A stretch of DNA of 64,000 nucleotides, taken from positions 1,007,001 through 1,071,000 of the forward strand of contig NZ_CP011477.1 of NCBI RefSeq assembly GCF_001010805.1. Reading direction: 5' to 3'. The notes below the pieces were generated by a model. The model did no database searches and was not told the origin of the DNA. It saw nothing but the letters and a program-made list of their open reading frames with translations. Each line of letters starts with the position of its first letter. The stretch's first letter is position 1. Positions 16,979-61,911 of the stretch are shown piece by piece. Origin of the DNA: Spongiibacter sp. IMCC21906. Its GTDB lineage: Bacteria > Pseudomonadota > Gammaproteobacteria > Pseudomonadales > Spongiibacteraceae. A program made the translations under genes and the position numbers.

Positions 16979-16997
16979 AACTAATATACCATCAGTT
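16979..16997. promoter_or_regulatory. Island operator, site A
   Basis: AACTAAT-ATACC-ATCAGTT, a 7-5-7 dyad, between the Rieske operon (start 53 bases away) and the divergent TetR gene. It fits the shared consensus AACTnAy-N5-rTnAGTT found at ten promoters in the island. Confidence 0.65.
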
Positions 16998-17190
16998 ATT
17001 TTTATGGGCAAGTTATCTGCTTGCATGAATTCTTCTGGTTAGTGGTCTATGGGCATATTTTTGCCTATAAATGGCATTTAGTGGTGCTTACCGGTTGGTG
17101 TGTCACTATATTTTGGCTGAATTCAGAGTTTTATGTGAAAATAAGGTAATATTTAAATTTCGGATAGTTTGTTTTTAAGGTATTGAACGC

Positions 17191-17859
17191 ATGCGTACGG
17201 TTATCACGACTAACAATCATGGCCAGTCACTTGGCCGCAAGGGAATGCAGACACGGACGCGCCTTATGGACGCTGCCCGCAAGCTATTGAAATCTGGCTC
17301 TCTGGTTGAGCTGACAGCTGTTTCTATTGCCAAGAAAGCCAAGTCATCGTCAGCAACCTTCTATCTTTACTTTTCGGATGTGCGTGACATTTTGCTTGCG
17401 CTTACCGAAGAAGCAGAATCGGATATGCAGGCTGTGCATGGCATATTGGATGAACCTTGGGACCCCAAAGTACTGGATGTCGATCATTCCCGTCGAGTGG
17501 TGCAGGCCTTTGTGTCGGTGTGGGATAAGCATCGGGAGGTGCTACGTTACAGAAACCTTGAGGCAGATCGGGGTGATCCAGTATTTGAAAATATACGCTT
17601 GAGAACATCGGTTAGGATCGTGAATCGCTTTGCAGAACATATTTTGGCTTCTTATCAAGAAGGTAGCGGTGGCGATAAGAAAACAGCTCAGGCCGACGCC
17701 TCAGTATTAGTCGCTGCTATGGAGCGCTTGGCGGCAACTGACCCTAAAACGGTAGAGCAAGGTGTGGGTGCGCAAGCAATGTGGGATGCCATGACGCGAG
17801 TTATTGCCCAGACATTGAGTTTCCCGGCGTCACCAGCTGAATTTGACCAGCCTCGCTGA
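17191..17859 (+). CDS. TetR-family transcriptional regulator
   Basis: A 222-residue TetR regulator. The N-terminal helix-turn-helix domain (about residues 18-70) reads GMQTRTRLMDAARKLL, then LVELTAVSIAKKAKSSSATFYLYFSDVRDILLAL, with the usual F-Y-x-Y-F turn. The C-terminal ligand-binding domain is not assignable to a ligand class by eye. It is divergent from the Rieske operon and shares a gap containing operator site A, so it is the best candidate for the regulator that binds the repeated 19-bp dyad. A strong hairpin follows it. Confidence 0.85.
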   Translation: MRTVITTNNHGQSLGRKGMQTRTRLMDAARKLLKSGSLVELTAVSIAKKAKSSSATFYLYFSDVRDILLALTEEAESDMQAVHGILDEPWDPKVLDVDHSRRVVQAFVSVWDKHREVLRYRNLEADRGDPVFENIRLRTSVRIVNRFAEHILASYQEGSGGDKKTAQADASVLVAAMERLAATDPKTVEQGVGAQAMWDAMTRVIAQTLSFPASPAEFDQPR

Positions 17860-17938
17860 GCCCATTTAAAAAATAGTTGATTTTGGATTTGATGATCAGT
17901 TTTACAATGAGTTTAGCTTTGTTGTGATACAAATACTT

Positions 17939-17970
17939 AACGTGCCGGGTCAACGCCCGGCACGTTTGGT
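17939..17970. terminator. Bidirectional terminator hairpin
   Basis: AACGTGCCGGG (17939-17949) and CCCGGCACGTT (17956-17966) form a perfect 11-bp stem with a six-base loop, followed by TGGTTTT on the plus strand. It separates the convergent TetR and acyl-CoA ligase genes. Confidence 0.8.
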
Positions 17971-17971
17971 T

Positions 17972-19603
17972 TTAGCGCTTATTTAATTTAAATCCTGCTT
18001 TTTCTCTGTCCCAGGTGTTTGCTGTTACACCCTCATCGCGTAGTTTGTATTTAAGTATACGGCCCACGGGGCTGCGGGGCATCTCGGCACTGCTGCGGAA
18101 CTCGAAGTAGCGCGGCACCGCAAAATAGGGCAGCTGTTCAGCTGACCAGGCGCACAATTCTTCTTCGCTGAGATTGCTGCCTTCTTTCACGGTAAGCGTG
18201 ACTTTAAGGTCGTCTTCGGTCAGCTCCGATAAGACCGCATGGGCTGCAACGTCTTCGATATCAGGGTGGCGGCGGAAGGCTGATTCCACTTCGAAGCTGG
18301 AAATATTCTCGCCACGGCGACGCAGATAATCTTTCTTGCGATCGACAAAATAGAAGTAGCCATTTTCATCAAATTTGCCGATGTCGCCAGTGTGGAACCA
18401 CATGTCCTTCATCACCTTTAAGGTGTCTTCAGGGCGTTTCCAGTAGCCTTGAAACATCACATTGGGGCGTAGTGGGCGCACAATCACTTCACCAGATTCT
18501 CCCTCGGGCACTTCAATGCCATTGTCATCAATGATACGAACATCAAAGCTGTCGTTGCGCATGCCTGAACAGTCTCCAGGCACTTTAATGCCCAGTGGCA
18601 CCGAGGTAACTAGTGAGCATTCGGTGAGACCAAAGCCAGGGCAGGCAGTATGTTTTGCGCCAAAGCGTTGTTTCCAGGCTTGTTGCAATTTGTCAGGGAA
18701 GGGGGCGCCGCCAACGATAGAGATTTGCCCAAAGCAGCGTTTTTCTGCTTCGTTCTCGGGGGCGCCAAGCAGCATGGGAAACATGGAGCCAAGCAGAGTG
18801 GTGTAATTGGCGCCGGTACGCTCAATTTCGGGCCAGAAGTTAGAAACGGAAAAACGCGGATAAATGGCGATACGGCCACCGTGCATCAATTCGCAAATGA
18901 CGTTGCTTACTGCATTGAAGTGAAACAGTGGTAAGGCAGTCCAGCTTACTGTGTCGGCACTGCGCCCGGTACCTTCACATACGATGCGGGCCAGGTTGCA
19001 GGCGTAATTATGGCTCACCATGCAACCCTTTGAAGGGCCGGTGGTACCGCCGGTGTAAATGAGCATGGCTAAATCTGATGGTGCTACCTCGACTTGTGGG
19101 TCGCTGCAATCATCAGCCAGTAGTTGCTCCCAGCTCATGACTTGGCCAGTAAAGCTAGCGGCGGGCGCTTCGCCTCGATGCACCAGGGTTTTAACGCTGG
19201 GCAATTCTGTGGCAATGGCCATAACACGGTCGGCATAATCGCTCTCGGCAATAACAACGCTCGCATCGCTGTCGCCAAGTTGATGCCGCAAAAATTCACC
19301 TTTATAGGCGGTGTTAATGGGCACCGAGATGGCGCCAAGTTTGTTGATGGCTAGCCAGATAAAGACAGCATCTTCGCTATTGTCCAGTAGGGTGGCAACG
19401 GTTTGCCCCTTTTCAATCCCCAGTGCTTTCAAACCATTGGCTAGTCGGCAGGCTTGTTTGTCGAGATCGGAGACACTGAATTTCTTACCCAAAAAATCTA
19501 AAAACTCTCTCTCAGGGTTGGCTTCAAGCGCCCGCTGAAGCACGGCGTTAATCGTATCCTGCTGCTCACTTCCCCATCGTGTGATTGACGTTTCATTTGT
19601 CAT
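17972..19603 (-). CDS. Acyl-CoA ligase (AMP-forming)
   Basis: A 543-residue ANL-superfamily CoA ligase that activates a carboxylic acid through an acyl-adenylate. The P-loop-like LIYTGGTTGPSKGCMVSH (about residues 166-183), the GFGLTECS motif, the FHTGDIG and DRKKDYLRRRGENISS hinge, and the C-terminal catalytic Lys in PVGRILKYKL are present. The start is set at ATG 19603 (MTNETSITRW); the open frame further upstream reads through the operator. Its promoter (site B) is nearly identical to that of the thiolase gene at 61954, so the first and a late pathway step are probably co-induced. Confidence 0.9.
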   Translation of the reverse strand: MTNETSITRWGSEQQDTINAVLQRALEANPEREFLDFLGKKFSVSDLDKQACRLANGLKALGIEKGQTVATLLDNSEDAVFIWLAINKLGAISVPINTAYKGEFLRHQLGDSDASVVIAESDYADRVMAIATELPSVKTLVHRGEAPAASFTGQVMSWEQLLADDCSDPQVEVAPSDLAMLIYTGGTTGPSKGCMVSHNYACNLARIVCEGTGRSADTVSWTALPLFHFNAVSNVICELMHGGRIAIYPRFSVSNFWPEIERTGANYTTLLGSMFPMLLGAPENEAEKRCFGQISIVGGAPFPDKLQQAWKQRFGAKHTACPGFGLTECSLVTSVPLGIKVPGDCSGMRNDSFDVRIIDDNGIEVPEGESGEVIVRPLRPNVMFQGYWKRPEDTLKVMKDMWFHTGDIGKFDENGYFYFVDRKKDYLRRRGENISSFEVESAFRRHPDIEDVAAHAVLSELTEDDLKVTLTVKEGSNLSEEELCAWSAEQLPYFAVPRYFEFRSSAEMPRSPVGRILKYKLRDEGVTANTWDREKAGFKLNKR

Positions 19604-19642: not shown

Positions 19643-19674
19643 ATAAACTAACACATAGTCATTTATTGGTGCAA
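19643..19674 (-). promoter_or_regulatory. Promoter with island operator, site B
   Basis: Operator AACTAAC-ACATA-GTCATTT at 19646-19664. Read toward the CoA ligase, TTGCAC (complement of 19669-19674) and TAGTTT (complement of 19645-19650) are 18 bases apart and could be -35 and -10 boxes, with the operator over the spacer. The region is almost the same as site C. Confidence 0.65.
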
Positions 19675-19873: not shown

Positions 19874-20242
19874 ATGGCTGAAATTCGTCCCGATATTGAA
19901 TACCTCAATTTTCTGAATGAGGGTAAGTTTTGTATTCAGCGTAGCAGCGGTAGTGGCAAATACGTGTTTTACCCCCGAACGATTGCTCCCGGCAGCGGCC
20001 TTGATGATCTGGAGTGGGTCGAAGCGGATGGTCGCGGCATTGTCTATTCAACAACGACTGTTCGCGCTCGTCCACCCAAGAGTGATTACAACGTGAGTTT
20101 GATTGAGCTGCGGGAAGGGCCCCGGATGATGAGCCGGGTTGAGGGTATTGCGCCAGAAGACATCTGTATCGGCATGACGGTAAAGGCACGCATTTTAAGC
20201 GAAGGTGATGAGCCGCCTTATATCGTATTTGATCCGGCCTGA
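19874..20242 (+). CDS. DUF35 OB-fold protein with degenerate zinc ribbon
   Basis: A 122-residue DUF35/OB-fold protein, the class that partners thiolase-fold Ltp2-like aldolases and MaoC proteins in steroid side-chain degradation (for example ChsH2). The OB domain is intact (LEWVEADGRGIVYSTTTVRA to GMTVKARI). The N-terminal rubredoxin-like ribbon keeps its framework, FCIQRSSGSGKYVFYPR and IAPGSG, but the four zinc-binding Cys positions are Ser, Ser, Ala and Ser. The start ATG 19874 has GAGAGGG upstream. It leads the seven-gene run to 26879, and could pair with the Ltp2-like protein at 54273, which has no adjacent DUF35 gene. That pairing is inference. Confidence 0.8.
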   Translation: MAEIRPDIEYLNFLNEGKFCIQRSSGSGKYVFYPRTIAPGSGLDDLEWVEADGRGIVYSTTTVRARPPKSDYNVSLIELREGPRMMSRVEGIAPEDICIGMTVKARILSEGDEPPYIVFDPA

Positions 20243-20310
20243 GCCGGTTGGCAATTTATAAGGTGCGCCAGCGGGCACACATAATCTATGTATGAGTAAT
20301 GGAGACGAAC

Positions 20311-21084
20311 ATGAATAACCCAATGTCGATGGAAGGCCGCGTCATTATGGTCACAGGTGCAGGTCAGGGAATCGGCCTGGCATTAAGCCGTCAGCTGCTG
20401 GACCTGGGTGCCAAGGTGGTTGGTGTGGATATGAATGCCGACACTTTAAACACGGTGGCCAGCGACTTGGGGGAGGGGTTTCTTCCTCTGCCGGGCAGTG
20501 TTACCGATGTAAATTTTGCGGCAGAAGCCGTAGCCCGCAGTGTTGACCATTTTGGCGCTTTGGATGGGCTGATCAATAATGCCGGGATCACTCGTCCAGC
20601 GATGATCAATAAAATGTCGATTGATGAATGGCAGTCGGTTATTGACGTGAACTTGAGTGGTTCTGTGTATTTTATGCAGGCGGTCGGTCGGCATATGTTG
20701 GCAGAAGCGAAAGCGGGAAATAAAGCCCCCGGTGCTATCGTCAATATCGCTTCTGATGCAGGTCGTCGTGGCAGCATGGGGCAAATCAACTATGCCTCTG
20801 CTAAAGCGGGTATCTTTGGCGCAACCATGACCGCGGCGCGGGAATGGGCCAAATTTGGTATTCGCTGCAATGCGGTGTGCTTCGGTGTGGTTGCTACGGC
20901 AATGACTGAAACCGTGCGTAACGATGAGCGTTTTGCCGACAATTATTTGGCTCAAATCCCCTTGGGTCGTTGGTCCTCACCAGAAGAAGTAGCCAAGCCG
21001 GTATGCTTTTTATTGTCTGATGCGGCTTCTTATATTACCGGTCAAATTTTGTCCGTTAATGGTGGTTACACCATTGCAATGTAA
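20311..21084 (+). CDS. Short-chain dehydrogenase/reductase
   Basis: A 257-residue classical SDR. Cofactor motif TGAGQGIGLAL (about residues 15-25), structural NNAG near residue 90, and catalytic Ser-Tyr-Lys with NIASDAGRRGSMGQINYASAKAG (about residues 147-169). An Asp after the second strand (VGVDMNAD) suggests NAD(H). Probably oxidises a hydroxyacyl-CoA or ring hydroxyl in the pathway, a FabG/HSD-like role. The start ATG 20311 follows a GGAG eleven bases upstream; the ATG at 20299 overlaps that ribosome site. The 3' end is ten bases from the next gene. Confidence 0.9.
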   Translation: MNNPMSMEGRVIMVTGAGQGIGLALSRQLLDLGAKVVGVDMNADTLNTVASDLGEGFLPLPGSVTDVNFAAEAVARSVDHFGALDGLINNAGITRPAMINKMSIDEWQSVIDVNLSGSVYFMQAVGRHMLAEAKAGNKAPGAIVNIASDAGRRGSMGQINYASAKAGIFGATMTAAREWAKFGIRCNAVCFGVVATAMTETVRNDERFADNYLAQIPLGRWSSPEEVAKPVCFLLSDAASYITGQILSVNGGYTIAM

Positions 21085-21094
21085 GGTGAGTGAG

Positions 21095-22165
21095 ATGCAG
21101 GAAATGGACGAGTTTATCGCCATGTTGCGCGATAGTGCTGAGGGTTTTTTGGCTGATTTTCAAGCTTCCCCCAACGCCAAAACTGAAATCGCAGTGCCGC
21201 GCCCCCTTGATCGTGAGCTGTGGGCGGTAATGGCTGAGTTGGGTTGGCTGGGCTTGCTGCTACCCGAGTCGCAGGGTGGTTTGGCGTTGCCGCTTGCCGC
21301 TGCAGCGGAATTGGCAGAAGTGATGGGGCGCTATCGTTTCCCTGTGCCGTATATCGAAGCGGCGATTATGCCTGGGCAGATATTGTCGGTTGCGGGCAAT
21401 GACCGTCTGGCAGCAGAGCTGGCCAGCGGTGATCAGCTGTTTTGTTTGGCATGGCAGGATCGTCCTGGCAGTGATAACGCTTTTGGTATGTGTACGCTCA
21501 GTGAGGGGGGGGTTAGCGGCAGTAAAAGTTTTGTTGCGGCGGTAGAGCCGGGCAGTCAAATATTGGTCTCGGTTAACACTCAAGACGGTCCCGGAATTGT
21601 TCTGGTCGACAGCGATGCTGCGGGTATTGCAGTGCAGCGTAGTGCGACCGCCTCGGGGAGTTTCTGCCAGTTAAGTTTTGACAAGGTGACTTGCACGCCG
21701 CTACTGACTGGCCTATTGGCAGAGCAGGCTTTGGCATCTGCCTTGACGGCAGGACGCTTATTGGCCAGTGCTTTTCTCACCGGTTTGTCCCGGGCTTGTT
21801 TGCGCGACACTGTGGACTATTTGAATCAACGTCAGCAATTCGGTCGCAAACTGTCGAGTTTTCAGAGCGTGTCCCATCGCTGTGTAGACATGCACATTCA
21901 TATTGAATTGGCCGAAGCCGTATGGCGGGTCGCTGCAGAGTCAGAGGATCTGGCAACGTTGAGCGCAGCCAAAGCTCGGGCCAGCGATGTGGCTCAGAAT
22001 GTGGGACGTCAGGCTGTGCAGCTGCACGGTGCTATGGGCTTTACCGAAGAGTGCGCGGTGGGTGAATACCTGCGCCTGGCCTTGCAGTATGGCAATTGGC
22101 TTGGCAGTGCCAAAACCCTGCGTCGGACTTTTCAATCTACCCGCAAAGGGGAGGCGCTGGCATGA
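21095..22165 (+). CDS. Acyl-CoA dehydrogenase, small (non-canonical) subunit
   Basis: A 356-residue acyl-CoA dehydrogenase-fold protein of the short kind that pairs with a full-length partner to form alpha2beta2 dehydrogenases in steroid catabolism (ChsE/Scd type). It has the N-terminal helical domain (ELGWLGLLLPESQGGLALPL), the FAD-contacting arginine segment in NQRQQFGRKLSSFQSVSHR (about residues 249-267) and QLHGAMGFTEE near the end, but lacks the middle-domain SEP-GSD substrate motif of its partner. Start ATG 21095. Overlaps the next gene by four bases, so stoichiometric expression with the large subunit is expected. Confidence 0.85.
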   Translation: MQEMDEFIAMLRDSAEGFLADFQASPNAKTEIAVPRPLDRELWAVMAELGWLGLLLPESQGGLALPLAAAAELAEVMGRYRFPVPYIEAAIMPGQILSVAGNDRLAAELASGDQLFCLAWQDRPGSDNAFGMCTLSEGGVSGSKSFVAAVEPGSQILVSVNTQDGPGIVLVDSDAAGIAVQRSATASGSFCQLSFDKVTCTPLLTGLLAEQALASALTAGRLLASAFLTGLSRACLRDTVDYLNQRQQFGRKLSSFQSVSHRCVDMHIHIELAEAVWRVAAESEDLATLSAAKARASDVAQNVGRQAVQLHGAMGFTEECAVGEYLRLALQYGNWLGSAKTLRRTFQSTRKGEALA

Positions 22166-23358
22166 GCGACTTAAGTACAAATGAAGCCACAATAAATCGC
22201 GATGACATGAGCGATGAAGATTTTCGGGCAGAATTCCGCGCCTTTTTGGCGACATATTATCCCGCTGAGCTGAAACAGGATTTCCATCGTCCCTTCCGTC
22301 GGTTGCGAGGTGACCCCGCCAATGACTGGCAGCGCACCTTGCAGAAACACGGCTGGCGGGCACCGGCATGGCCCCGTGAGAGTGGTGGCATGGGGTTGTC
22401 ATTTCGCAAGCAGCTCATTTACCACGAAGAGCTGGAGCATGCGGGAGTGGCGCGCATTATCGATCTGGGTGAAACCCAGCTTGGTCCCACCATTATTAAA
22501 ATGGGTAGCCCAGAGCAATGCGAGCATTACCTGCCTCGTATTCTCAATTGCGAACATGTGTGGTGCCAGGGTTATTCCGAACCCAATGCCGGTTCAGATC
22601 TAGCGAGTCTGCGCACCAGCGCGGTACTGGATGGTGATGACTTTGTGGTGAATGGCCAAAAAATCTGGACCACTCACGCCAATGATTCCACGCATATTTT
22701 TACGCTGGTACGCACCGGAAAATATGAAAAGAAACAGCAGGGCATCAGCTTTTTGCTGATCGATCTTGACGCCCCTGGCATCTCGATTCGCCCCATTATT
22801 AATTTGGCGGGTGAAGATGAGTTCTGCGAAGTGTTTTTCGAAAATGTGCGGGTACCCAAAGCGAATCTGGTAGGCGAGTTGGATCAAGGTTGGGCGGTTG
22901 CCAAAGCACTACTCGGTTACGAGCGAGTGTGGATTGGCAGCCCTGCGCTGGCGGGTAAGGCGCTTGCCCTCGGCGAGCATCTTGTTGAGCAATTGGGGCT
23001 GGAAGATGACCGCGGGGTAATGGACGAGTTAGCGCAACTACAAGCGGATCTCCACGACTATCGCCTGCTTTACTCTCGTATTTGCGACGCCATTGCCGAC
23101 AGTGGCAAAGCGCCGGGACCAGAAGTGTCGATGCTCAAAGTGTATGCCTCGGAATTACTGCATCGTTTGACGGAATTTAATGTGGAGATCAGCGGCGAGT
23201 ACGGCGCGGTGGTTGGCGATGTCACGGTGCAAAATTCCGCCACCGAAACCGATTTGTACTGGCAGCTGATGATGGCGCGTCCGGTTACGATTTTTGCCGG
23301 TGCCAATGAAATACAGCGGGATATTCTCGCTAAAACTGTTCTGGGCCTGCAGGCCTGA
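22162..23358 (+). CDS. Acyl-CoA dehydrogenase, large subunit
   Basis: A 398-residue acyl-CoA dehydrogenase with the middle-domain motif GYSEPNAGSDLASLRTSA (about residues 138-155), NGQKIWTTHAN, and the C-terminal FAGANEIQRDILAKTVLGL. Start ATG 22162 overlaps the stop of the small subunit (ATGA), fixing it. It most likely forms a heterotetramer with the 21095 product and introduces a double bond next to a CoA thioester on a bulky substrate. Order is small then large, the same order as the halves of the fused enzymes at 33126 and 52021. Confidence 0.9.
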   Translation: MSDLSTNEATINRDDMSDEDFRAEFRAFLATYYPAELKQDFHRPFRRLRGDPANDWQRTLQKHGWRAPAWPRESGGMGLSFRKQLIYHEELEHAGVARIIDLGETQLGPTIIKMGSPEQCEHYLPRILNCEHVWCQGYSEPNAGSDLASLRTSAVLDGDDFVVNGQKIWTTHANDSTHIFTLVRTGKYEKKQQGISFLLIDLDAPGISIRPIINLAGEDEFCEVFFENVRVPKANLVGELDQGWAVAKALLGYERVWIGSPALAGKALALGEHLVEQLGLEDDRGVMDELAQLQADLHDYRLLYSRICDAIADSGKAPGPEVSMLKVYASELLHRLTEFNVEISGEYGAVVGDVTVQNSATETDLYWQLMMARPVTIFAGANEIQRDILAKTVLGLQA

Positions 23359-23400
23359 TCTGTATGCCGATCAGGTGATCGGCAGCAAAGGAGTATGACT

Positions 23401-24648
23401 ATGTTTAGTACAGGCGCACTTTCTAATACCGGCGCACTTGGCGGTATCCGCGTGCTTGATATGACTCGGGTTGTTGCTGGTCCTTATGCAGGGCAAATAT
23501 TGGGTGATCTTGGCGCCGAAGTCGTCAAAATCGAGCGCAAGGGTGAGGGGGATGATTGCCGCCGGGTTGGCCCTCCATGGATGGACAGTGAGCTTGGTCG
23601 TCAAGGCCAGGACTCGACCTACTATCAATCAGTGAATCGCAACAAAAGCTCAATTTCGGTGGATTTTGCCACTGAGGCTGGTGCCGATTTAATCCGTCAA
23701 CTAGCCGCTAACGCGGATGTACTGGTAGAGAATTATCGCAGCGGCACTCTGGCTCGTTACGGTCTGGGTTATGAAGATCTTAAAGCCATCAACCCCAAAT
23801 TGATTTACTGCTCTGTTACTGGTTTTGGACAGACCGGGCCCTATGCAGGGCGGTCGGGCTACGACTATCTGGTTCAAGCTATGGCGGGACTGATGTCGGT
23901 AACCGGTCATCACGATGGCGTTCCGGGTGATGGGCCAATGCGAGTCGGCGTGCCAATTGCGGATATTTGTGCCGGTTTATATGCTGCGATTTCAGTGTTG
24001 GCGGCGCTAAATTACCGCAACGTCAGTGGTGAGGGTCAATATATTGATGTATCGCTATTCGACTCTCAATTATCTGCCATGCTTAATACGTTCTCGGGCT
24101 GGTTCAATGGTGGCACCGCCTTGGGACGCACCGGTAATGATCACCCCAGCGCGGCACCCTACGGCGTGTTCAAAGTGGATGATGGGTATATTTTGATTGC
24201 GACCTTTAACGACCGCGAGTTTGTTCGTTTGGCTGGTGTGTTAGGTCATGCCGAATGGGGCAGTGATCCTCGCTTTTGCAGTATGGGTGCACGGGTAGCC
24301 AATCGGGAAGAGTTGAAAGCCCTTGTTACTGAAGCTTTAAAAGGTAAAACCAAAGTCGAGTGGGTCGAGATTCTTAACGCGGGTACTGTTTCCTGTGGCG
24401 GCATTAATGAAATGGCCGATATTGAAAAAGACCCGCAGGTGCTGGCGCGGGAATTAATTATCAACCAAGAGCACCCCACCAATGGCACTATTCGCAGCGC
24501 GGCAAGTCCCATGCGTTTTTCGGCATCGCCAGTCACCTATCGCCAAGCACCACCGTTACTGGGCGAACATAACGAACAGGTTCTGTCTTCTTGGCTGGGT
24601 TTTAATGATGAGCAAATCTCGGCCTTGCAAGAGCAGGGGGCTATATGA
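23401..24648 (+). CDS. CaiB/BaiF-type CoA transferase (family III)
   Basis: A 415-residue family III CoA transferase, which moves CoA between carboxylates via an aspartyl-CoA anhydride. Motifs: VLDMTRVVAGPYAGQILGDLGAEVVKIE near the N terminus, VLVENYRSGTL, SVTGFGQTGPYAGRSGYD, and PIADICAGLYA holding the likely catalytic Asp (about residue 183). AAAGGAG at 23387-23393 is best spaced for ATG 23401 rather than ATG 23395. It could transfer CoA from a released product to a fresh acid substrate, as BaiF does with bile acids, or act as an epimerase-type racemase. Overlaps the next gene by four bases. Confidence 0.9.
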   Translation: MFSTGALSNTGALGGIRVLDMTRVVAGPYAGQILGDLGAEVVKIERKGEGDDCRRVGPPWMDSELGRQGQDSTYYQSVNRNKSSISVDFATEAGADLIRQLAANADVLVENYRSGTLARYGLGYEDLKAINPKLIYCSVTGFGQTGPYAGRSGYDYLVQAMAGLMSVTGHHDGVPGDGPMRVGVPIADICAGLYAAISVLAALNYRNVSGEGQYIDVSLFDSQLSAMLNTFSGWFNGGTALGRTGNDHPSAAPYGVFKVDDGYILIATFNDREFVRLAGVLGHAEWGSDPRFCSMGARVANREELKALVTEALKGKTKVEWVEILNAGTVSCGGINEMADIEKDPQVLARELIINQEHPTNGTIRSAASPMRFSASPVTYRQAPPLLGEHNEQVLSSWLGFNDEQISALQEQGAI

Positions 24649-25799: not shown

Positions 25800-25832
25800 T
25801 TCGCTAGTTTAAAGAACAGGAAAAGTGCTGTT

Positions 25833-26960: not shown

Positions 26961-26979
26961 AGCTAACACATAGTTAGTT
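26961..26979. promoter_or_regulatory. Island operator, site D
   Basis: AGCTAAC-ACATA-GTTAGTT, ending 44 bases before the crotonase gene at 27023. The core CTAAC-N5-GTTAG is a perfect palindrome, the most symmetrical of the set. Confidence 0.7.
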
Positions 26980-27823: not shown

Positions 27824-27850
27824 AATCGGGTTTTAGCAGAGAGCGCTTGA

Positions 27851-28336: not shown

Positions 28337-28365
28337 CACTAACTCAATTTTTTTGGAGCTATGCA

Positions 28366-31939: not shown

Positions 31940-31958
31940 TAATGATTATGTGTCATTT
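31940..31958. promoter_or_regulatory. Island operator, site J
   Basis: TAATGAT-TATGT-GTCATTT, 88 bases upstream of the minus-strand ligase gene. The weakest match to the consensus of the ten, but a strong dyad (AATGA/TCATT) with the same 7-5-7 geometry and TATGT centre. Confidence 0.5.
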
Positions 31959-44713: not shown

Positions 44714-44747
44714 TTAAATGCTTTTGCCAATTAATGTGAGCGTAGAG

Positions 44748-50335: not shown

Positions 50336-50349
50336 CGCGTTTGCCAATG

Positions 50350-51955: not shown

Positions 51956-51985
51956 TTGAAAACTGAATATATGTTAGTTTATTAT
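51956..51985 (+). promoter_or_regulatory. Promoter with island operator, site G
   Basis: Operator AACTGAA-TATAT-GTTAGTT at 51961-51979. TTGAAA (51956-51961) and TATTAT (51980-51985) are 18 bases apart and could be -35 and -10 boxes, with the operator filling the spacer: a repressor layout. Confidence 0.7.
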
Positions 51986-52020
51986 CTATTGCAATGCTTG
52001 TACAGAGACCGATAAAGCCC

Positions 52021-54252: not shown

Positions 54253-54272
54253 AAAGTTTTAGGAGAAGTAGG

Positions 54273-55430: not shown

Positions 55431-55454
55431 AAATCTCGCAACGGAGTGAGCAAT

Positions 55455-56252
55455 ATGTCTTTTTTTGATCGTTATGAATTTTTCAAGTTTGAGCGTCGCG
55501 GCAAGGTGCTTAATATTATTCTCAATAACCCCGAAAAGTTAAATGCGTTTAGTGAAGAGGGGCACCGCGAATTGTCCCGGGTGTTTTTTGACGCTGCGGA
55601 AGATTTAGAGAGCGAGATTATTGTAGTGACGGGGGCGGGTCGCGCCTTCACTGCGGGCGGCGATTTGGAGTATATGCAAAAGCTGAGGGATAACCCCGAG
55701 CTGATGCACCGCACCATTCGCGAAGCCAAGCGCTTTGTGTTCACGCTGCTGGATTGTGAAAAGCCGGTAATTTGTAAGGTCAACGGCGACGCGATTGGCT
55801 TGGGCACCACTTTGTCTTTCTTGGCTGATATTACCTTTTCAACGGAAGCGGCTAAATTTGGCGACCCGCACAACAACGTTGCGCTTATGGCCGGTGATGG
55901 TGGCAGCGTAATTTGGCCGCAGCTGATGGGTTATGCCCGTGCCAAGCATTACCTGTTTACTGGTGACGTGATCAAAGGCAAAGAAGCCCAGGAAATGGGC
56001 TTGATTCACAAGGCGCTTGCTCCGGAAGAGTTGGACGCGGCAGTGGATGCCTACTGCGACCGCTTATTGGCTATGCCAATACAATCGGTGCGCTGGACCA
56101 AACAGGTAGTGAATATTCCCCTCAAGCAATTGGCTCACAGCATGATGGATGCGGGGATGGCCTATGAGCATATTGCTGGTCAGACTGAAGATCACCAAGA
56201 GGCGATTAATGCCTTCCGTGAGCGCCGCAAACCCGTTTTTCAAGGCAAATAA
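55455..56252 (+). CDS. Enoyl-CoA hydratase/isomerase family protein
   Basis: A 265-residue crotonase-fold protein with the two oxyanion-hole blocks GRAFTAGGDLEYM (about residues 60-72) and KVNGDAIGLGTTLSFLADITFS (about residues 105-126), then FGDPHNNVALMAGDGGSVIWPQLMG, FTGDVIKGKEAQEMGLIHKAL and a C-terminal FRERRKPVF. Start ATG 55455 is placed by ACGGAG upstream; a GTG at 55446 overlaps that site. Third gene of the site G operon. Substrate presumably an unsaturated ring or chain CoA ester. Confidence 0.88.
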   Translation: MSFFDRYEFFKFERRGKVLNIILNNPEKLNAFSEEGHRELSRVFFDAAEDLESEIIVVTGAGRAFTAGGDLEYMQKLRDNPELMHRTIREAKRFVFTLLDCEKPVICKVNGDAIGLGTTLSFLADITFSTEAAKFGDPHNNVALMAGDGGSVIWPQLMGYARAKHYLFTGDVIKGKEAQEMGLIHKALAPEELDAAVDAYCDRLLAMPIQSVRWTKQVVNIPLKQLAHSMMDAGMAYEHIAGQTEDHQEAINAFRERRKPVFQGK

Positions 56253-56311
56253 GAAAGACTAAACGGCAGGCTTCAGTTTGTCGTTTAGTTATTGTTTTTT
56301 CGAGAAGTGCC

Positions 56312-57106
56312 ATGAGTGAAATGATGTCATCGGATAGCCCCATCACCCTGCAGAAGCAGGGACAGGTCACGCATATACAATTGAATAATCCCAAGCGTCG
56401 CAATGCCCTAAGTCGCGAAATGACAGGTTTGTTGATAGATACGCTACGGCAGGTTCATGCGGATGAAGATTGTCGTGCGATTGTGCTCAGCGGTCGTGGC
56501 GGGCATTTCTGTGCCGGTGGCGATGTCTCTGCCATGCAGGCAGACAGACCGATTCTGGGTTCGCGTCAGCGCATTGAATTTGCCCACCAGATTGTGCGCC
56601 TGCTTGCGGCGGGTCCCAAGCCTGTCATCTGTGCTATTGAGGGGGTGGCCTTTGGTCTGGGGCTGTCACTGGCCCTGGCCAGTGATGTGGTAGTGGCTGC
56701 CGAGGGCAGCTCGATGTGTGCGGTCTTCAATAAAGTAGGCTTAGTGCCCGACATGGGACTGATGTGGACATTGGCCCAGCGAGTGGGTGTAGCCAAGGCT
56801 AAGCAATTGTTTTTCAGTGCTGAGGTTTTGGGCCAGCCTGCAGCGCAAGCATTGGGTTTAGTCGATTTCAGTGCCGCCAAGGGTAATGCGATTGATGTTG
56901 CTTTTGCACGGGCCAAGGAGTTCTGCAGTGCGGCCCCTATGCCTATCGCTTTAGTTAAGGCGGCCTATGCCAAAGGTTTTTCCTCGTTGGAAGATGCCCT
57001 GCGAGCAGAGGTGGATTACCAGCCCGCGCTGTATCTCAGCGAAGATCATCAGGAAGGTGTGGCGGCGTTTTTTGAAAAACGTAAACCAGTGTTTAAAGGT
57101 AAATAA
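56312..57106 (+). CDS. Enoyl-CoA hydratase/isomerase family protein
   Basis: A 264-residue crotonase-fold protein: GRGGHFCAGGDVSAM (about residues 60-74), AIEGVAFGLGLSLALASDVVVAA (about residues 107-129), FNKVGLVPDMGLMWTLAQRVG, FSAEVLGQPAAQALGLVDF and FFEKRKPVFKGK at the C terminus. Closer to typical isomerase/hydratases (PaaG/PaaF-like) than its upstream neighbour. It lies 59 bases after that gene in the same operon. Confidence 0.88.
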   Translation: MSEMMSSDSPITLQKQGQVTHIQLNNPKRRNALSREMTGLLIDTLRQVHADEDCRAIVLSGRGGHFCAGGDVSAMQADRPILGSRQRIEFAHQIVRLLAAGPKPVICAIEGVAFGLGLSLALASDVVVAAEGSSMCAVFNKVGLVPDMGLMWTLAQRVGVAKAKQLFFSAEVLGQPAAQALGLVDFSAAKGNAIDVAFARAKEFCSAAPMPIALVKAAYAKGFSSLEDALRAEVDYQPALYLSEDHQEGVAAFFEKRKPVFKGK

Positions 57107-57151
57107 AATTGAGTAGCTGGGCCAAGTTTCACTGACAGGGAATAAATAACC

Positions 57152-58018
57152 ATGGCGACAAGCTATGAAAAATTACTGGCTTTGAACGTGCCGGAAAAAA
57201 CGGTGCATTACACAGCCAAAGACTGCCAGCTTTATGCCTTGAGTCTGGGCCTGGGTAGTAATCCCATGGACTCAGTTGAGCTGGATTTTGTTTACGAAAA
57301 AAACCTGAAAGTGCTGCCCAGTTTGTCAATGACGTTGGCTCATCCTGGATTTTGGGCGCGGGATCTCGACAGCGGCCTGGACTGGGTAAAGATTCTTCAT
57401 GCGGGCCAGTCTATGACTCTGCATGAGCCCTTGCCCAGCGATGCTGATATTGTCGCCCGCAGTCGCATTGTAGATGTGATTGATAAGGGTGAGGGAAAAG
57501 GCGCGTTGGTCTACTTTGAGCGTCAGCTTATCGATCGGCAAAACGGCACCCTGTATTGCACGATGGTACAGACTATGTTCTGCCGTGGCGATGGTGGCAT
57601 GGGGGGAAATGAAGCACTTAAGCCTGTGGTTCACCGTATTCCCCAGCGGTCAGCAGATGCGATTGATGTTCAGCAGACCTCGCTGCAAATGGCATTGCTG
57701 TATCGCCTGAATGGCGATATGAATCCTTTGCATGCTGATCCTGACATTGCCACCAAGGCGGGATTTGAACGTCCCATCTTGCAGGGGTTGGCCAGTTTTG
57801 GTGTGGCATGTGCCAGTGTGATCAAACTGTGTTGTGACCATGAGCCGAAACGTATGTTGAGTATGGACTGTCGGTTCAGTGCCCCGGTCTATCCAGGTGA
57901 AACCTTGCGCACTGAGGTATGGAACGAGGCTGAAGGAATCTACTTTCGGGTGTCTATCGATGGCCGCGATGCCCATGCCATTGATAATGGCTTTGTCTCA
58001 CTACGGCCAGTGAGTTAA
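57152..58018 (+). CDS. MaoC-type (R)-enoyl-CoA hydratase 2
   Basis: A 288-residue double-hotdog hydratase, a close relative of the 32174 product. N-terminal AKDCQLYALSLGLGSNPMD, TMVQTMFCRGDGGMGG, and the catalytic hydratase-2 motif YRLNGDMNPLHADPDIA (about residues 188-204) with Asp and His, then RPILQGLASFG. Fifth gene of the site G operon, providing hydration to feed the Ltp2-like protein encoded upstream. Confidence 0.9.
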   Translation: MATSYEKLLALNVPEKTVHYTAKDCQLYALSLGLGSNPMDSVELDFVYEKNLKVLPSLSMTLAHPGFWARDLDSGLDWVKILHAGQSMTLHEPLPSDADIVARSRIVDVIDKGEGKGALVYFERQLIDRQNGTLYCTMVQTMFCRGDGGMGGNEALKPVVHRIPQRSADAIDVQQTSLQMALLYRLNGDMNPLHADPDIATKAGFERPILQGLASFGVACASVIKLCCDHEPKRMLSMDCRFSAPVYPGETLRTEVWNEAEGIYFRVSIDGRDAHAIDNGFVSLRPVS

Positions 58019-58060
58019 TTTTCGCGGCTAATAATAATAGTTAATTTTGATGGGTAAGAT

Positions 58061-59287
58061 ATGAGTGATAAAAATTTAGATAGTGCTGCCAGCGTTACCA
58101 TCAGCGATATAGATTTTCCGGTATGGGATGCTGACAGCCATCTTTACGAAAGTGAGGAAGCTTTTCTTCGCTACCTGCCCAGGCAATTTGCAAAAGATTT
58201 TCAATTCATCGATATCAAAGGTCGTAAAAAATTAGCTATTGATGGGGTGATTACTGACTATATTCCCAACCCGGACTTTGCGGTGGTTGCCGCTCCAGGT
58301 GCTCACGAAAAATGGTATCGGGGCCAAAATCACGAGGGCTTATCAATGCGTGAGCTCAGTGGTAAACCGCTATCGCCACCAGAGCCCTGGCGAACGGGCA
58401 GAGGCAAGCTGCTGGAGCTGGATCAGCAAGGCATACATGCCTCAATGGTGTTTCCAACTTTGGCCTCGGTGGTCGAGGCGCGCTTGGGGCATAAGCCGGA
58501 ATCCATCGCCGCATTATTCTCTTCCTTGAATAGCTGGGTTGAAGATGAGTGGGGATTTTCTCGCAGCAAGCGTCTCTACCCCGTTGCCATGATCAATTTG
58601 TCTGATGTCGATCTGGCTGTTAAAGAATTGGACATTGCACTTCAACGGGGTGTGAGGGTGGTCGGTATTCGCCCGGCCCCTGTGCCGGGGCCTTTAGGTG
58701 GTCGTTCGCCTGGTGATCGGGAGTTTGATCCCTTTTGGGCTCGGGTAAACGAAGCGGGTATCTTTGTGTGTCTGCACGCTTCGGACTCTGGTTATGACGA
58801 TATGAGCCGCCGCTGGGAAGGCGGGGCTAAAGAGTGGATTCCCTTTGAGCCAACGCCGTTTAAAGCTTGTTTGGATGCCTTAGGGCGGGCGATTAGCGAT
58901 AGCTTATCTGCGCTGATTTGCCACGGGGTGTTCGAGCGTTTTCCCAATGTGCGGGTGGTGTCGGTGGAAAATGGAGCGCACTGGCTGCCTTCTTTGCTGC
59001 ATCGTCTGGAGCGGGTGTATGGTCAGATGCCCACTTATTTTAAACGGCACCCAGTAGCGCAATTTCGCCAGCATATTTTTGTGGTGCCATTTTACGAAGA
59101 TAATATCAGTGAGTTGGCGAAGTTGATTCCCGTCGAACGAATTTTGTTTGGCAGTGACTTTCCTCACCCCGAAGGCTTGCCTCAACCTTTAGATTACCTG
59201 AGTGAGTTTTCGGTATTGCCCAAAAATAGCATTCGTAAAATAATGAGCGAGAATTTGCAGGGCTTGCTGAAAGGTTCGCGGGACTAA
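58061..59287 (+). CDS. Metal-dependent amidohydrolase (amidohydrolase-2 family)
   Basis: A 408-residue TIM-barrel hydrolase of the PF04909 group (ACMSD/gamma-resorcylate decarboxylase relatives). The N-terminal metal site is VWDADSHLYE (DxH, about residues 22-31); FVCLHASD (about residue 243) offers the mid-barrel His, ALICHGVFERFPNVRVV the next His, and GSDFPHPEG (about residues 365-373) the C-terminal Asp. This family performs hydrolytic or decarboxylating C-N and C-C cleavages. Homologs are common in island-type clusters of actinobacteria and proteobacteria without firm assignment. Last gene of the site G operon. Confidence 0.85.
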   Translation: MSDKNLDSAASVTISDIDFPVWDADSHLYESEEAFLRYLPRQFAKDFQFIDIKGRKKLAIDGVITDYIPNPDFAVVAAPGAHEKWYRGQNHEGLSMRELSGKPLSPPEPWRTGRGKLLELDQQGIHASMVFPTLASVVEARLGHKPESIAALFSSLNSWVEDEWGFSRSKRLYPVAMINLSDVDLAVKELDIALQRGVRVVGIRPAPVPGPLGGRSPGDREFDPFWARVNEAGIFVCLHASDSGYDDMSRRWEGGAKEWIPFEPTPFKACLDALGRAISDSLSALICHGVFERFPNVRVVSVENGAHWLPSLLHRLERVYGQMPTYFKRHPVAQFRQHIFVVPFYEDNISELAKLIPVERILFGSDFPHPEGLPQPLDYLSEFSVLPKNSIRKIMSENLQGLLKGSRD

Positions 59288-59556: not shown

Positions 59557-60450
59557 TTATTCGAGTTTAAACTCCAGAATACCGTTATCCATCACCACTG
59601 CATCCCGTTCAATGCAGATAACTCGGAAGTACGCTTTGCCGGGTTGAGCGTCATACCAGATTTCGGTCCGCAGAGTTTCATCTGCAAATATCGGCGCTTT
59701 ATAGCGCAGACCCATGTGCAACAGTCGATCTGGCTGGTTAGCACAAGCCATGTGTAACAGCGCGCGACCAGCAACACCAAAGGCGCAAACTCCTCGTAGC
59801 GGAGGTTTTCCCTCAGCACCTGGCGTATCTTTTAGTGCGCCCACAAATTGTTCGCCAAGGTGATAGCGGGTGTTGTCACGGCCAGGGGTTGCCAAGTCCA
59901 GCTGTTGATCGGGGCTGCGATCAGTGGGCACTTTTACAGGGGCCGGGGTGTTTGTTGCGCTACCACCAAAGCCGCCGTTGCCGACAAGAAAAGTGCCGAT
60001 GCGAATGGTAGCAACGGGGCTGTTGTCGTCATCGCTGAGCACACGATGTTCATACATAAAGGCGCCCTTGCCATGGCCGCGATCGTAAACTTCCTCGACA
60101 TGATAATTGGCAGTGAGTGTCGCCGCACTGGCAATGGGTTTGTGAATAGTAATGGATTCTTCGGCATGTAAGGTTTTTCGCCAGTCGATGCCTGTTGCTG
60201 GATCCATTGTCCACATGCTGCCTTCATTCAAAACAATTGACATCATTGGCAGGGCTTTAAGTGTGTCGTCGTTGCGAATGTATTGGGTTTCTTCGGAGGC
60301 TATAGCGGGATTGCCACCGGCGGCGATTCCCAGCGCATAGGCAATGCAATCGCTTCTGTTATAAGACTCGGTAAGTGACTCAAACGGCCAGTTCATCACG
60401 GTATCGTAATCTAATTGCGTGGGATGGCTTTTAGTGTCTGCTGCGCTCAT
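59557..60450 (-). CDS. MaoC-like protein without catalytic residues
   Basis: A 297-residue double-hotdog protein clearly homologous to the 32174 and 57152 hydratases: DYDTVMNWPFESLTESYNRSDCIAYALGIAAG, LPMMSIVLNEGSMWTMDPATGIDWRKTLHAEES, FLVGNGGFGG, GVCAFGVAGRALLHMACANQPDRLLHMGLRYKAP. The hydratase-2 motif with Asp and His (GDxNPLHxDP in the paralogs) is replaced by YHLGEQFVGALKDTPGAEG, so it should not hydrate. It may be a non-catalytic partner or acyl-CoA binding protein. Start ATG 60450 with GAGA upstream; a TTG at 60465 is an alternative. Confidence 0.85.
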   Translation of the reverse strand: MSAADTKSHPTQLDYDTVMNWPFESLTESYNRSDCIAYALGIAAGGNPAIASEETQYIRNDDTLKALPMMSIVLNEGSMWTMDPATGIDWRKTLHAEESITIHKPIASAATLTANYHVEEVYDRGHGKGAFMYEHRVLSDDDNSPVATIRIGTFLVGNGGFGGSATNTPAPVKVPTDRSPDQQLDLATPGRDNTRYHLGEQFVGALKDTPGAEGKPPLRGVCAFGVAGRALLHMACANQPDRLLHMGLRYKAPIFADETLRTEIWYDAQPGKAYFRVICIERDAVVMDNGILEFKLE

Positions 60451-60519
60451 AACATTCTGTCTCAATAAGTCGCGCTTGATAATACCGGCGCGCGAGTTCG
60501 GTCTTGTTGCTTTAATAAT

Positions 60520-60538
60520 AACTTATAATGTATCAGTT
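60520..60538. promoter_or_regulatory. Island operator, site H
   Basis: AACTTAT-AATGT-ATCAGTT, 70 bases upstream of the MaoC-like gene on the minus strand. Its half sites closely match site A (AACTAAT and ATCAGTT). Confidence 0.65.
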
Positions 60539-60876
60539 ATGAAGTTAATAATTTAGTTAAAGGTCTATAATCAAAGGAATATATTAAAATATTGGGATGT
60601 TGGTGTCGGTTTTGATGGCTGATTGTATGTTTGTTATTTGGGGTGTTAGGTGTGATTTTGGTAGCTGCTGCGGAGGCGGGAGTACATTTTCAGACGGCAG
60701 GCAAGTGGATCGAGTCACGATATGAGCCGACTAGGACGGGCTTGTCTAATAGAGATTTATAACGCCTTTGCTTAATTGCGCTGTTAATACAATTGGCGAT
60801 AACAAGAACTTGAAGCTACTGCTTGGCTGGGTAGCGTAATGGCCCGCAGTGACCGTTCAATTAGTGTTAGCAGGCC
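60539..60876. other. Intergenic gap
   Basis: About 340 bases between two minus-strand genes beyond site H. No gene, strong hairpin or further dyad was recognised. Confidence 0.5.
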
Positions 60877-61740
60877 CTAAGTTAATTTCTTGAGAAAATT
60901 GAGAAGTGCTGCACTTGCCATATCGTTGCGATCGCCTGCAACCATATGCCCCGCACCTTTAATATCTACAAAATCCAGTTGGGGAATATCTCGCTTTAAG
61001 TCGGCAACGCTTTCCATACTGACAATGGTGCTTAATTGCCCGCGTATCAACAGGCAGGGCTGGGTAATTCTTGGGGCCGCGTTTTGCATACTTGCACTGA
61101 GCTCTTTGACCTTATCTTGCCAGTCACCGGCAATAAAGGCGGGGTCCCAGTGCCAAACCCAACGGCCATCTTTGCGTTGCCGAAGTACACGCTTGAGGCC
61201 GGACTGACTGGACTGTTGCTGTCGGTGGGGGTTGTGTTTGGCGATGCTTTGCTGGGCGTCATGTAAAGTGCTGAAGCCTTCGGGGTGGGCTTGCATAAAA
61301 TTGACGATTCCTTGGGCGCCAGCAATTTCTATGGTGGGGCTGACATCGACAAGCACCAGTCCGTGGCACAGCTCAGGGCGTTGTGCTGCCAGCAATAGCG
61401 ATAGGGCGCCGCCAATGGAGGCCCCGACAAGTATCACCGATTTGCCTGTTTGTTTGCAGCAGGCGTCAAGGTCTTCCAGCATGGATTCAAATTGGTAGTC
61501 ACCATCGCTGGCCCATTCAGATTCACCGTGGCCGCGTAAATCAATGCTGATAGCGCAATAGCCCGCGTTAGCGAGGGTGTTTGCAGTTGACTGCCAGGAT
61601 TGCCGGGTTTGACCGCCACCATGCAGCAGAATAACGGTGGGGGCGCTACTCGGCCCAAAGCGGTCTGCTTTGAGTTTAAGTTGTTTTTTGCCCTTGAACT
61701 CCAGGTTTTGGGGGACGCTTTGATTGTTGGTGTTTTGCAT
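60877..61740 (-). CDS. Alpha/beta hydrolase
   Basis: A 287-residue alpha/beta-hydrolase. ILLHGGGQTRQSW is the oxyanion loop (about residues 34-46), VGASIGGALSLLLA holds the nucleophile Ser (about residue 101) and GAGHMVAGDRND the catalytic His (about residue 268). The segment RGQLSTIVSMES, where relatives usually have SD and the catalytic acid, has Thr, so the acid may be elsewhere. Could hydrolyse a lactone, ester or CoA thioester. It is divergent from the thiolase gene, with site C in the shared gap. Confidence 0.82.
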   Translation of the reverse strand: MQNTNNQSVPQNLEFKGKKQLKLKADRFGPSSAPTVILLHGGGQTRQSWQSTANTLANAGYCAISIDLRGHGESEWASDGDYQFESMLEDLDACCKQTGKSVILVGASIGGALSLLLAAQRPELCHGLVLVDVSPTIEIAGAQGIVNFMQAHPEGFSTLHDAQQSIAKHNPHRQQQSSQSGLKRVLRQRKDGRWVWHWDPAFIAGDWQDKVKELSASMQNAAPRITQPCLLIRGQLSTIVSMESVADLKRDIPQLDFVDIKGAGHMVAGDRNDMASAALLNFLKKLT

Positions 61741-61879
61741 TATTGAAGGCTTCCCTGGTCGTTTTTTTGCCGCAGTTCCTGCTTTTAATTAAAGAATATC
61801 TTCTTAGTTATTGCTTGTCTTGCTAACACATTTATTTGATATTTTACGTCACAGAACCATTTCCCATTGTGGACAATGA

Positions 61880-61911
61880 TTGCGCCAATAAATGACTATA
61901 TGTTAGTTTAT
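61880..61911 (+). promoter_or_regulatory. Promoter with island operator, site C
   Basis: Operator AAATGAC-TATAT-GTTAGTT at 61890-61908. TTGCGC (61880-61885) and TAGTTT (61904-61909) are 18 bases apart and could be -35 and -10 boxes. About 34 bases here match site B (reverse strand) with two differences. Confidence 0.7.

Follow-up and report, generated by a model that had tools for sequence, protein, structure and literature searches.

Introduction

KstR and KstR2 of actinobacteria are TetR-type local repressors of a steroid catabolic cluster, and the regulator gene lies inside that cluster. The KstR2 operator is the 14-bp palindrome AnCAAGnnCTTGnT, located in divergent promoters (available text of PMC3068626). 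The locus analysed here lies in a window of 64,000 nucleotides (the whole stretch of DNA under study) and in the sequence just past its end. Like the KstR/KstR2 clusters, it has palindromes in divergent promoters and a regulator gene within the cluster, here termed TetR1 (17191..17859, + strand). Unlike the 14-bp palindromes, its dyads are 19 bp long with a 7-5-7 layout; it belongs to another phylum, and a full-length KstD-like protein was not found in its genome. The site consensus differs by eye from AnCAAGnnCTTGnT as given in the available text of PMC3068626, in agreement with the original prediction that the dyad is unlike the KstR motif. None of the 41 PDB sequences that match TetR1 at E <= 5 (sequence only) is a KstR-named chain, and the two NCBIfam matches of TetR1 are FadR and FabR. 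A KstR-type system was rejected, as operator and TetR1 sequence both fail to fit.

EdcR of Caenibius tardaugens is a proteobacterial TetR-like repressor of the estrogen-degradation cluster. The available text of PMC8700777 describes a C-terminal TetR_C_11 domain, four promoters (Pr, Pt, Pa, and Pb), and a putative operator, TnnCnnTACnAnTnGTAnnGnnA, that overlaps the -10 box. TetR1 resembles EdcR in being a proteobacterial TetR-type candidate repressor, with several predicted operators that overlap promoter-like boxes, but it has TetR_C_38 in place of TetR_C_11 and a 7-5-7 dyad in place of TnnCnnTACnAnTnGTAnnGnnA. HrtR of Lactococcus lactis is a heme sensor that controls heme efflux (available text of PMC7858072). 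No HrtR-named chain occurs among the PDB matches to TetR1. The HrtR operator has the core ATGAC-N5-GTCAT, and the dyads share its half-site and its spacing. Acyl-CoA-responsive TetR repressors (FadR of Bacillus and Thermus, PsrA) control target genes of a similar class, and their operators have another length and spacing than the 7-5-7 dyad. The helix-turn-helix of TetR1 weakly matches NCBIfam FadR (20.3 bits, far under the curated cut-off of 200), and TetR1 matches PDB 3whb, a fatty acid metabolism regulator, at E 0.043. Neither this operator nor this regulon is described in the available text of the best-ranked open-licence literature, including PMC4810484, PMC5790920, and PMC6678751, or in that of PMC3068626, PMC8700777, and PMC7858072. 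Here, we report sequence evidence that supports a single regulon spanning the island, with TetR1 as its putative regulator.

Dyad sites and genes of the island

The island, some 60,000 bases of a marine-type bacterium, holds about 40 genes predicted to serve the breakdown of lipid-like compounds, and a dyad lies in most of its promoter gaps. The sites, which have no strand, were labelled A to J and scored with a position weight matrix. Site A (16979..16997, 19.6 bits) lies in the gap between TetR1 and a KshA-like Rieske oxygenase gene (15928..16926, - strand). Site B (19646..19664, 23.3 bits) lies in the divergent gap between FadD, an acyl-CoA ligase (17972..19603, -; likely start 19603), and a block of DUF35, SDR, four acyl-CoA dehydrogenase-type genes, and CoA-transferase III (19874..26879, +). 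Upstream of the enoyl-CoA hydratase gene (likely start 27023), followed by SnoaL-like and acyl-CoA ligase genes (27023..29898, +), is site C (26961..26979, 21.9 bits). Sites D (31940..31958, 17.9 bits) and E (32058..32076, 21.2 bits) share a divergent gap. D is on the side of FadD (acyl-CoA ligase, 30317..31852, -) and E on that of MaoC, which is grouped with a fused acyl-CoA dehydrogenase, an Ltp2-like thiolase-fold protein, and a ChsH2-like DUF35 protein (32099..37145, +). Site F (44607..44625, 18.5 bits) precedes a FadH/OYE-like reductase and storage-lipid genes (HAD/acyltransferase, WS/DGAT, and GPAT; 37199..44582, -), and site G (44695..44713, 19.5 bits) precedes a TonB-dependent receptor (44718..47162, +). 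Site H (51961..51979, 22.1 bits) separates FadD, the acyl-CoA ligase encoded with an isochorismatase-fold protein (49718..51894, -), from a divergent block of fused acyl-CoA dehydrogenase, thiolase, two crotonases, MaoC, and amidohydrolase (51994..59287, +). Site I (60520..60538, 21.7 bits) is upstream of a MaoC/FAS1-dehydratase-like gene (59557..60465, -), and site J (61890..61908, 23.4 bits) is upstream of a thiolase (likely GTG start 61954) paired with a crotonase (61954..63944, +).

The observation of the dyad is confirmed. All ten 19-mers of the original prediction are present at the positions given there, but they occupy eight promoter gaps rather than ten. Their placement 25-100 bases upstream of a gene start holds roughly; with re-chosen starts, several of them uncertain, the sites lie about 4-87 bases from the closest start. 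Nine of the ten sites match AACTNACN5GTNAGTT with 0-2 mismatches. Site D, with four, is the weakest against this strict consensus and is missing from the list of matches with up to three mismatches. The raw consensus is a weak test, with 28 matches in the window versus 16.5 +/- 4.5 in shuffles. The matrix gave 17.9-23.4 bits for the ten sites and 10.9 for the next-highest window position, and leave-one-out matrices placed each site at rank 10 or better within the window. Among 60 shuffled windows, 17 contained any score above 14 and one contained any score of at least 17.8. Matrix scans found no site in window positions 1-15900 (best 9.7 bits) or in the 40 kb preceding the window (best 10.3 bits).

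Distribution in the genome and in relatives

Five more sites, not used in training, score 16.5-20.8 bits within 12 kb past the window end, which supports an extension of the regulon by about 12 kb. The genome scan bore out the proposed clustering: AACTRAY-N5-RTYAGTT, a refined pattern tuned on the window sites, has 14 matches at up to one mismatch in the 3.48-Mb genome (reversed-pattern control, 4), and 13 of them (eight window sites and the five outside) lie in one 59-kb island. The raw consensus shows no genome-wide excess over its reversed pattern at up to two mismatches (89 vs 109) and is not raised at up to one (9 vs 7); eight of these nine places are inside C1:1026646-1076417. Position, not raw count, sets the dyad matches apart. 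A covariance-model scan of the genome, a method too insensitive for 19 positions, gave one weak hit (E 2.2).

Absence of conservation in orthologous gaps, which had been named as evidence against a regulon, was not what we found: the sites are kept while their flanks diverge. Conservation was counted for sites A-I. Invariant positions number 18/19 across five genomes at site A (12/245 elsewhere in the gap), 19/19 across four at site B (remainder 85/254), 16/19 across four at site C (remainder 30/122), and 15/19 across three at site G (remainder 40/170). The genome and one relative, G016, have 18/19 positions of site D (remainder 77/230) and 19/19 of site E in common. Site H is shared with G001 at 19/19 and site I at 15/19, but both gaps are conserved as a whole (53/83 for H; remainder 52/116 for I). 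Site F (44607) is the least supported, with 5/19 positions invariant in three genomes and no conservation in G001 or G016. Most sites are kept in G001 and G016, and site A is kept in G003. Complete genomes of the same genus have 14, 16, and 21 refined matches when TetR1 is present (n=3) and 1-10 when it is not (n=14). Refined matches number 4 in G003, which is 84% complete (control, 9), and 17 in G220 (control, 15).

TetR1 as the candidate regulator

TetR1 scores 24.7 bits against TetR_N (Pfam cut-off 24.0) and 40.8 against TetR_C_38 (cut-off 23.9), and its predicted recognition helix reads TFYLYFSD. Its AlphaFold model is poor (pLDDT 57.9). The palindromic candidate operators in the promoters of neighbouring genes are conserved together with TetR1. 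The same four of 57 genomes carry near copies of both TetR1 and the adjacent Rieske gene; G048 has a TetR1 homolog of 51% identity, but a search at E 1e-60 found no Rieske gene there. Five of seven distant homologs have a dyad next to them or no more than about 1.4 kb away, at 67% (G220), 51% (G048), and 34-37% identity (G245, G264, and G226). In G245, the sole exact refined match in 5.3 Mb sits 1.4 kb from the homolog. For the two homologs in G037 (32-37% identity), no site exceeds 14 bits (best 13.6). As the original prediction favoured, TetR1 (17191) is the most likely regulator of the dyads; dyad placement, conservation, gene co-occurrence, and the association of helix and operator described below support this assignment. 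With 194 bases between site A and its start, TetR1 may or may not regulate its own gene.

The recognition helix and TGAC-N5-GTCA

Fifty loci of weakly related TetRs had been meant as a negative control, and six of them scored above 16, four with the dyad directly upstream of the TetR gene. These high scores are accounted for by the make-up of the set, because 30 of the 50 loci came from a peptide-pattern scan and all 30 carry TFYLYFSD.

Upstream of weakly related TFYLYFSD TetR genes, TGAC-N5-GTCA is found at 12 of 30 loci (expected, 0.12) and is lacking at 18, and other half-site spacings give 0-1 matches. It is found at 0/12 comparison loci, a set of 20 from which eight without a usable TetR match were left out; the helix was read for eight of these 12. 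The test was framed after part of the data had been seen. Several of the 30 loci are near-duplicates (for example, L029/L030/L034 and L043/L047/L053), and the 12 positives therefore cannot be counted as independent; they represent two or more groups, among them Alphaproteobacteria and Clostridia-type Firmicutes.

Promoter overlap and proposed mechanism

In three promoters, the dyad had been suggested to overlie the -35/-10 spacer. Overlap with promoter-like boxes, defined as -35/-10 consensus matches only, is indeed above chance, at 7/15 sites (site H among them) versus a random-relocation mean of 2.2, with one of the 15 sites outside the scanned gaps and still in the denominator. This overlap was reached in 4 of 2000 relocations. 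The promoter-like matches themselves are at chance level (16 vs 16.2 expected; 15 vs 17.8). From the overlap of dyads with promoter-like boxes, we infer repression.

Very probably, the dyad is the operator of TetR1 in a repressed lipid-catabolic island that a pathway intermediate would release. When no pathway substrate is available, a TetR1 dimer would sit on the 19-bp dyad, over or beside the promoter, and would block about 12 predicted transcription units of the ~59-kb island. The genes of the island would take up a bulky lipid, branched or cyclic, activate it with CoA, and break it down, and would also provide for wax/triacylglycerol storage. With the pathway active, TetR1 would bind one of the intermediates, of which an acyl-CoA thioester is the likeliest, and would leave the dyad, and uptake, activation, oxidation, and storage are therefore proposed to switch on together.

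It is improbable that TetR1 binds the dyads as an activator or in a mixed role. Eight of the 15 sites have no overlapping promoter-like match (one lies outside the scanned gaps), as activation would allow, but the other seven overlap -35/-10-like boxes, and the catabolic-island TetRs KstR2 (PMC3068626) and EdcR (PMC8700777) are repressors in the available text. Slightly less probable again is a regulator from outside, of the TetR or another type, or the LysR encoded just past the window, which has a dyad (C1:1080680) in its gap and is kept in Pseudomaricurvus. Against this, the dyads track TetR1 from one family to another and occur close to its remote homologs; TetR1 alone among the 20 TetR_N genes identified in this genome bears TFYLYFSD, and no dyad in the 3.1-kb loci of the other 19 scores more than 12.4 bits. 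The TFYLYFSD/TGAC-N5-GTCA association also points to TetR1. TetR2 (47344, AefR-like) is encoded within the island, but we consider it a very unlikely reader of the dyads. A search at E <= 1e-15 gave no relative of TetR2 in G001, G003, or G016, of which G003 retains site A and the other two retain most sites; its helix region is STIYRHYNNK, and the best dyad in its 3.1-kb locus reaches 7.7 bits. On these grounds, TetR2 was rejected. Repeats that arise by chance or from base composition in AT-rich gaps are a negligible explanation, rejected on shuffles, island-confined refined matches, and gap conservation. In favour of it, the raw consensus exceeds chance only weakly in the window and does not outnumber its reversed pattern in the genome, and 14 of 300 shuffles of island-gap DNA contain a score of 16.5 bits or more. 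Against it, 15 sites were found where a shuffle seldom yields one, the sites are conserved across families, and the refined genome matches fall, with one exception, in one island.

Relation to steroid catabolism

The predicted enzymes of the island resemble those of sterol side-chain catabolism. A predicted Ltp2-type aldolase, whose top PDB match is 6ok1 ('lipid-transfer protein', E 2e-55; presumably Ltp2), adjoins a ChsH2-type DUF35 protein with zf-ChsH2 and OB_ChsH2_C domains (36708-37145). A search with NF009478/PRK12844, which we take to be the KstD family, found no full-length KstD-like protein in this genome (G000; best 35.8 bits). The same model gives 475-741 bits in eight of nine other genomes and 34.9 in G014, and no match passes the cut-off of 789. 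The presumed KstD family does not track the island, because it is strong in G002, G004, and G011, which lack a close TetR1. The best match in G000 to TIGR03213 (HsaC-type extradiol dioxygenase) reaches 337 bits where the cut-off is 366, and the HsaC-like gene, at 435 kb, lies beside DmpG-like, acetaldehyde dehydrogenase, and Rieske genes. A canonical steroid-ring regulon was rejected, given no full-length match to the presumed KstD family in this genome and an HsaC-like gene in an aromatic-type cluster. Zhongshania is not mentioned in the best-ranked open-licence matches of the sterol literature.

Discussion

Under the reading of TetR1 as repressor, the island offers a testable regulon, with about 40 genes and 15 putative operators under a single candidate regulator, in gammaproteobacterial relatives of Zhongshania and Spongiibacter. 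A broader proposition is put forward tentatively, and we hold it to be somewhat doubtful: that TFYLYFSD is a portable cross-phylum predictor of TGAC-N5-GTCA and also governs an undescribed 59-kb, KstD-independent isoprenoid/alicyclic lipid regulon, in which one repressor would tie together uptake, breakdown, and wax/triacylglycerol storage. If TetR1 senses a pathway intermediate, the effector would hint at the substrate of the island, and use as a biosensor would be possible. The helix-to-operator association could aid operator prediction for many uncharacterised TetR proteins.

Distribution of the dyad

Each of the ten 19-mers of the original prediction, 7-5-7 dyads A to J, lies exactly at its position in the window (16979, 19646, 26961, 31940, 32058, 44607, 44695, 51961, 60520, and 61890, respectively). 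Searching with the consensus first proposed, AACTnAC-N5-GTnAGTT, is a weak test. With up to three mismatches, 28 window matches were obtained against 16.5 ± 4.5 expected, and site D was absent among these 28. Counts in the 3.48-Mb genome were not above those of the reversed pattern (89 versus 109 at ≤2 mismatches; 9 versus 7 at ≤1). What stands out is placement: eight of the nine genome places with at most one mismatch fall inside 50 kb.

A position weight matrix gives a more stringent test. Built from the ten sites, as originally proposed, it scored them at 17.9-23.4 bits, and the next window position at 10.9 bits. When each site was omitted in turn, it still ranked tenth or better in the 64 kb. 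Among 60 dinucleotide-shuffled windows, a score >14 occurred in 17 and ≥17.8 in one. Five extra dyads (16.5-20.8 bits) were detected past the end of the window (C1:1007001-1071000), at C1:1074862, 1076323, 1076399, 1080680, and 1083077; their neighbors are an SDR gene, an amidohydrolase gene, an esterase/patatin pair, a LysR/dehydrogenase-like pair (at 1080680), and a gene with a sub-threshold lipocalin match only. By our own gene calls, the island totals 15 sites in 12 gaps across 59 kb; shuffled island gap DNA reached ≥16.5 bits at least once in 14 of 300 trials. The matrix scan found no dyad in the 40 kb preceding the window (top score, 10.3 bits). A further candidate (16.2 bits) lies at C1:1106046.

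The refined pattern AACTRAY-N5-RTYAGTT (≤1 mismatch), which was tuned on the window sites, matched the genome 14 times (reversed pattern, 4). Of these, 13 fall in the island (eight window sites and all five outside), and the sole other one, C1:3061518, is within an ORF close to its start.

Conservation in relatives

Close copies (87-89% identity) of TetR1, the TetR gene adjoining site A (17191-17859, + strand), occur in a Zhongshania MAG, Zhongshania marina (Spongiibacteraceae), Spongiibacter thalassae, and Pseudomaricurvus alcaniphilus (Cellvibrionaceae); these probably overlap with the numbered genomes and were counted once. Most sites are kept in orthologous gaps. In the fetched stretch of G016, which spans A-G, every site except F is retained (six of seven), D scoring 14.7 bits. 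That of G001 spans A-I and clearly keeps seven of nine (E at 14.7 bits; F missing), site D being ambiguous because its gap is enlarged. The Pseudomaricurvus locus covers A, B, C, and four beyond-window sites and keeps all seven.

Invariant positions in the footprints, versus the rest of the gap, were 18/19 versus 12/245 for A (five genomes), 19/19 versus 85/254 for B and 16/19 versus 30/122 for C (four genomes each), 15/19 for G and 5/19 for F versus 40/170 (three genomes), and 18/19 for D and 19/19 for E versus 77/230 (two genomes). The footprints of H (19/19 versus 53/83) and I (15/19 versus 52/116), each in two genomes, carry little weight because their gaps are conserved as such.

Gene content of the island

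The window part of the island encodes four acyl-CoA ligases, single and fused acyl-CoA dehydrogenases, crotonases, MaoC proteins, thiolases, a CoA-transferase III, Ltp2-like and ChsH2-like partner proteins, a TonB receptor, a FadH/OYE-type reductase, GPAT, WS/DGAT, and HAD-acyltransferase proteins, and a KshA-like Rieske oxygenase (15928-16926, - strand), whose PDB similarity to KshA is limited to residues 13-128. In gene content, these enzymes resemble sterol side-chain catabolism, and steroid degraders occur in Spongiibacteraceae (PMC5790920). However, family PRK12844, which we take to be KstD, reached at best 35.8 bits in this genome versus 475-741 in eight of nine other genomes, and the HsaC-like gene is located in an aromatic-type cluster. 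As a best guess, the substrate may be an isoprenoid-like acid or ester, branched or cyclic.

TetR1 as the predicted regulator

Co-occurrence with the Rieske gene, dyads beside homologs, and the helix/operator association described below give good support to a coherent regulon with TetR1, already favored by the original prediction, as its predicted regulator. The same four of 57 relatives hold both a close TetR1 (87-100%) and the Rieske gene (E ≤ 1e-60). Some TetR match at E ≤ 1e-3 is present in 19 of the 57, including G048 (51%) and G037 (33-34%), which lack the Rieske gene at that cut-off of 1e-60. Refined matches numbered 14, 16, and 21 in the three complete genomes of the genus that carry TetR1. 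The incomplete MAG G003, which also carries it, gave 4, and the 14 same-genus genomes lacking TetR1 gave 1-10. The island (C1:1024-1083 kb here) is patchy, the close TetR1-Rieske pair being present in four of 18 same-genus genomes.

A search of 390 genomes from this order at E 1e-25 detected TetR1 relatives in nine, of which six belong to other genera. Homologs in G220 (67%) and G048 have dyads in adjoining gaps. In G245, G264, and G226, the homologs (34-37%) lie no more than ~1.4 kb from dyads scoring 20.9, 23.1, and 18.0 bits, respectively. No dyad >14 bits surrounds the two G037 homologs (32-37%; top, 13.6). Exact refined matches numbered one in G245 and two in G264, one in each lying 1.4 kb from the TetR1 homolog. 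Two exact matches in G048 (C19:140568 and C55:427891) are distant from its TetR1 homolog, and C19 has a partial PRK12844 match ~12 kb from its dyad; hence, the regulon may be split in G048. In G003, an HsaC/BphC-like gene is followed, ~160 bases downstream, by a 17.3-bit dyad (L120:2543).

The second TetR gene, TetR2 (47344), was rejected as a candidate: a search at E 1e-15 detected no relative of it in the remaining three TetR1-bearing genomes. TetR2 and an amidase gene (47344-49697) were not matched in the stretches fetched from G001 and G016; this segment, which is without a strong dyad, looks like a local insertion in the island.

Promoter overlap

Promoter-like matches as such were at chance level. 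The 21 island gaps (4296 bases) contain 14 such matches. Eight of these 14 lie over dyads, touching seven of 15 sites; relocated dyads had a mean of 2.2 touched, and ≥7 in four of 2000 trials. This overlap fits repression by occlusion. In three divergent gaps there are two sites apiece, or about one for each promoter. The distance from site A to the Rieske start is 52 bases, whereas that to the TetR1 start is ~194; hence, TetR1 autoregulation is uncertain. The reported effectors of KstR and KstR2 are steroid-derived CoA esters (PMC6678751; for KstR, also PMC8700777). By this analogy and from gene content, the effector may be a CoA ester.

Recognition helix and operator

The TetR1 recognition helix, TFYLYFSD, is exclusive to TetR1 among the 20 TetR_N genes found in the genome. 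The corresponding residues are FYLYF or FYVYF in homologs that have dyads and FYHYF or FYQYF in the dyad-less G037 homologs. The N-terminal arm, N(N/K)HGQxxGRKG (residues 8-18), is conserved as far out as the G245, G264, and G226 homologs (34-37% identity), as would be expected if this arm contacts DNA.

A TetR1 peptide-pattern scan yielded 30 further loci of weakly related TetRs, all with TFYLYFSD. Exact TGAC-N5-GTCA occurred ≤350 bases upstream of the TetR match in 12 of the 30, versus 0.12 expected from the remainder of those same loci, and spacings N3, N4, N6, and N7 in 0, 1, 0, and 0. None of the 12 usable comparison TetR loci (of 20) had TGAC-N5-GTCA. The positive loci (L031, L038, L040-L044, L046, L047, L050, L051, and L053) belong to Clostridia-type Firmicutes and Alphaproteobacteria; six carry exact pairs 38-63 bases apart. 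Since the idea was formed after a surprising control and the 30 loci include near-duplicates, support for a putative association of the TFYLYFSD helix with a TGAC-N5-GTCA operator is strong but not final. This association is the part that may extend beyond this island.
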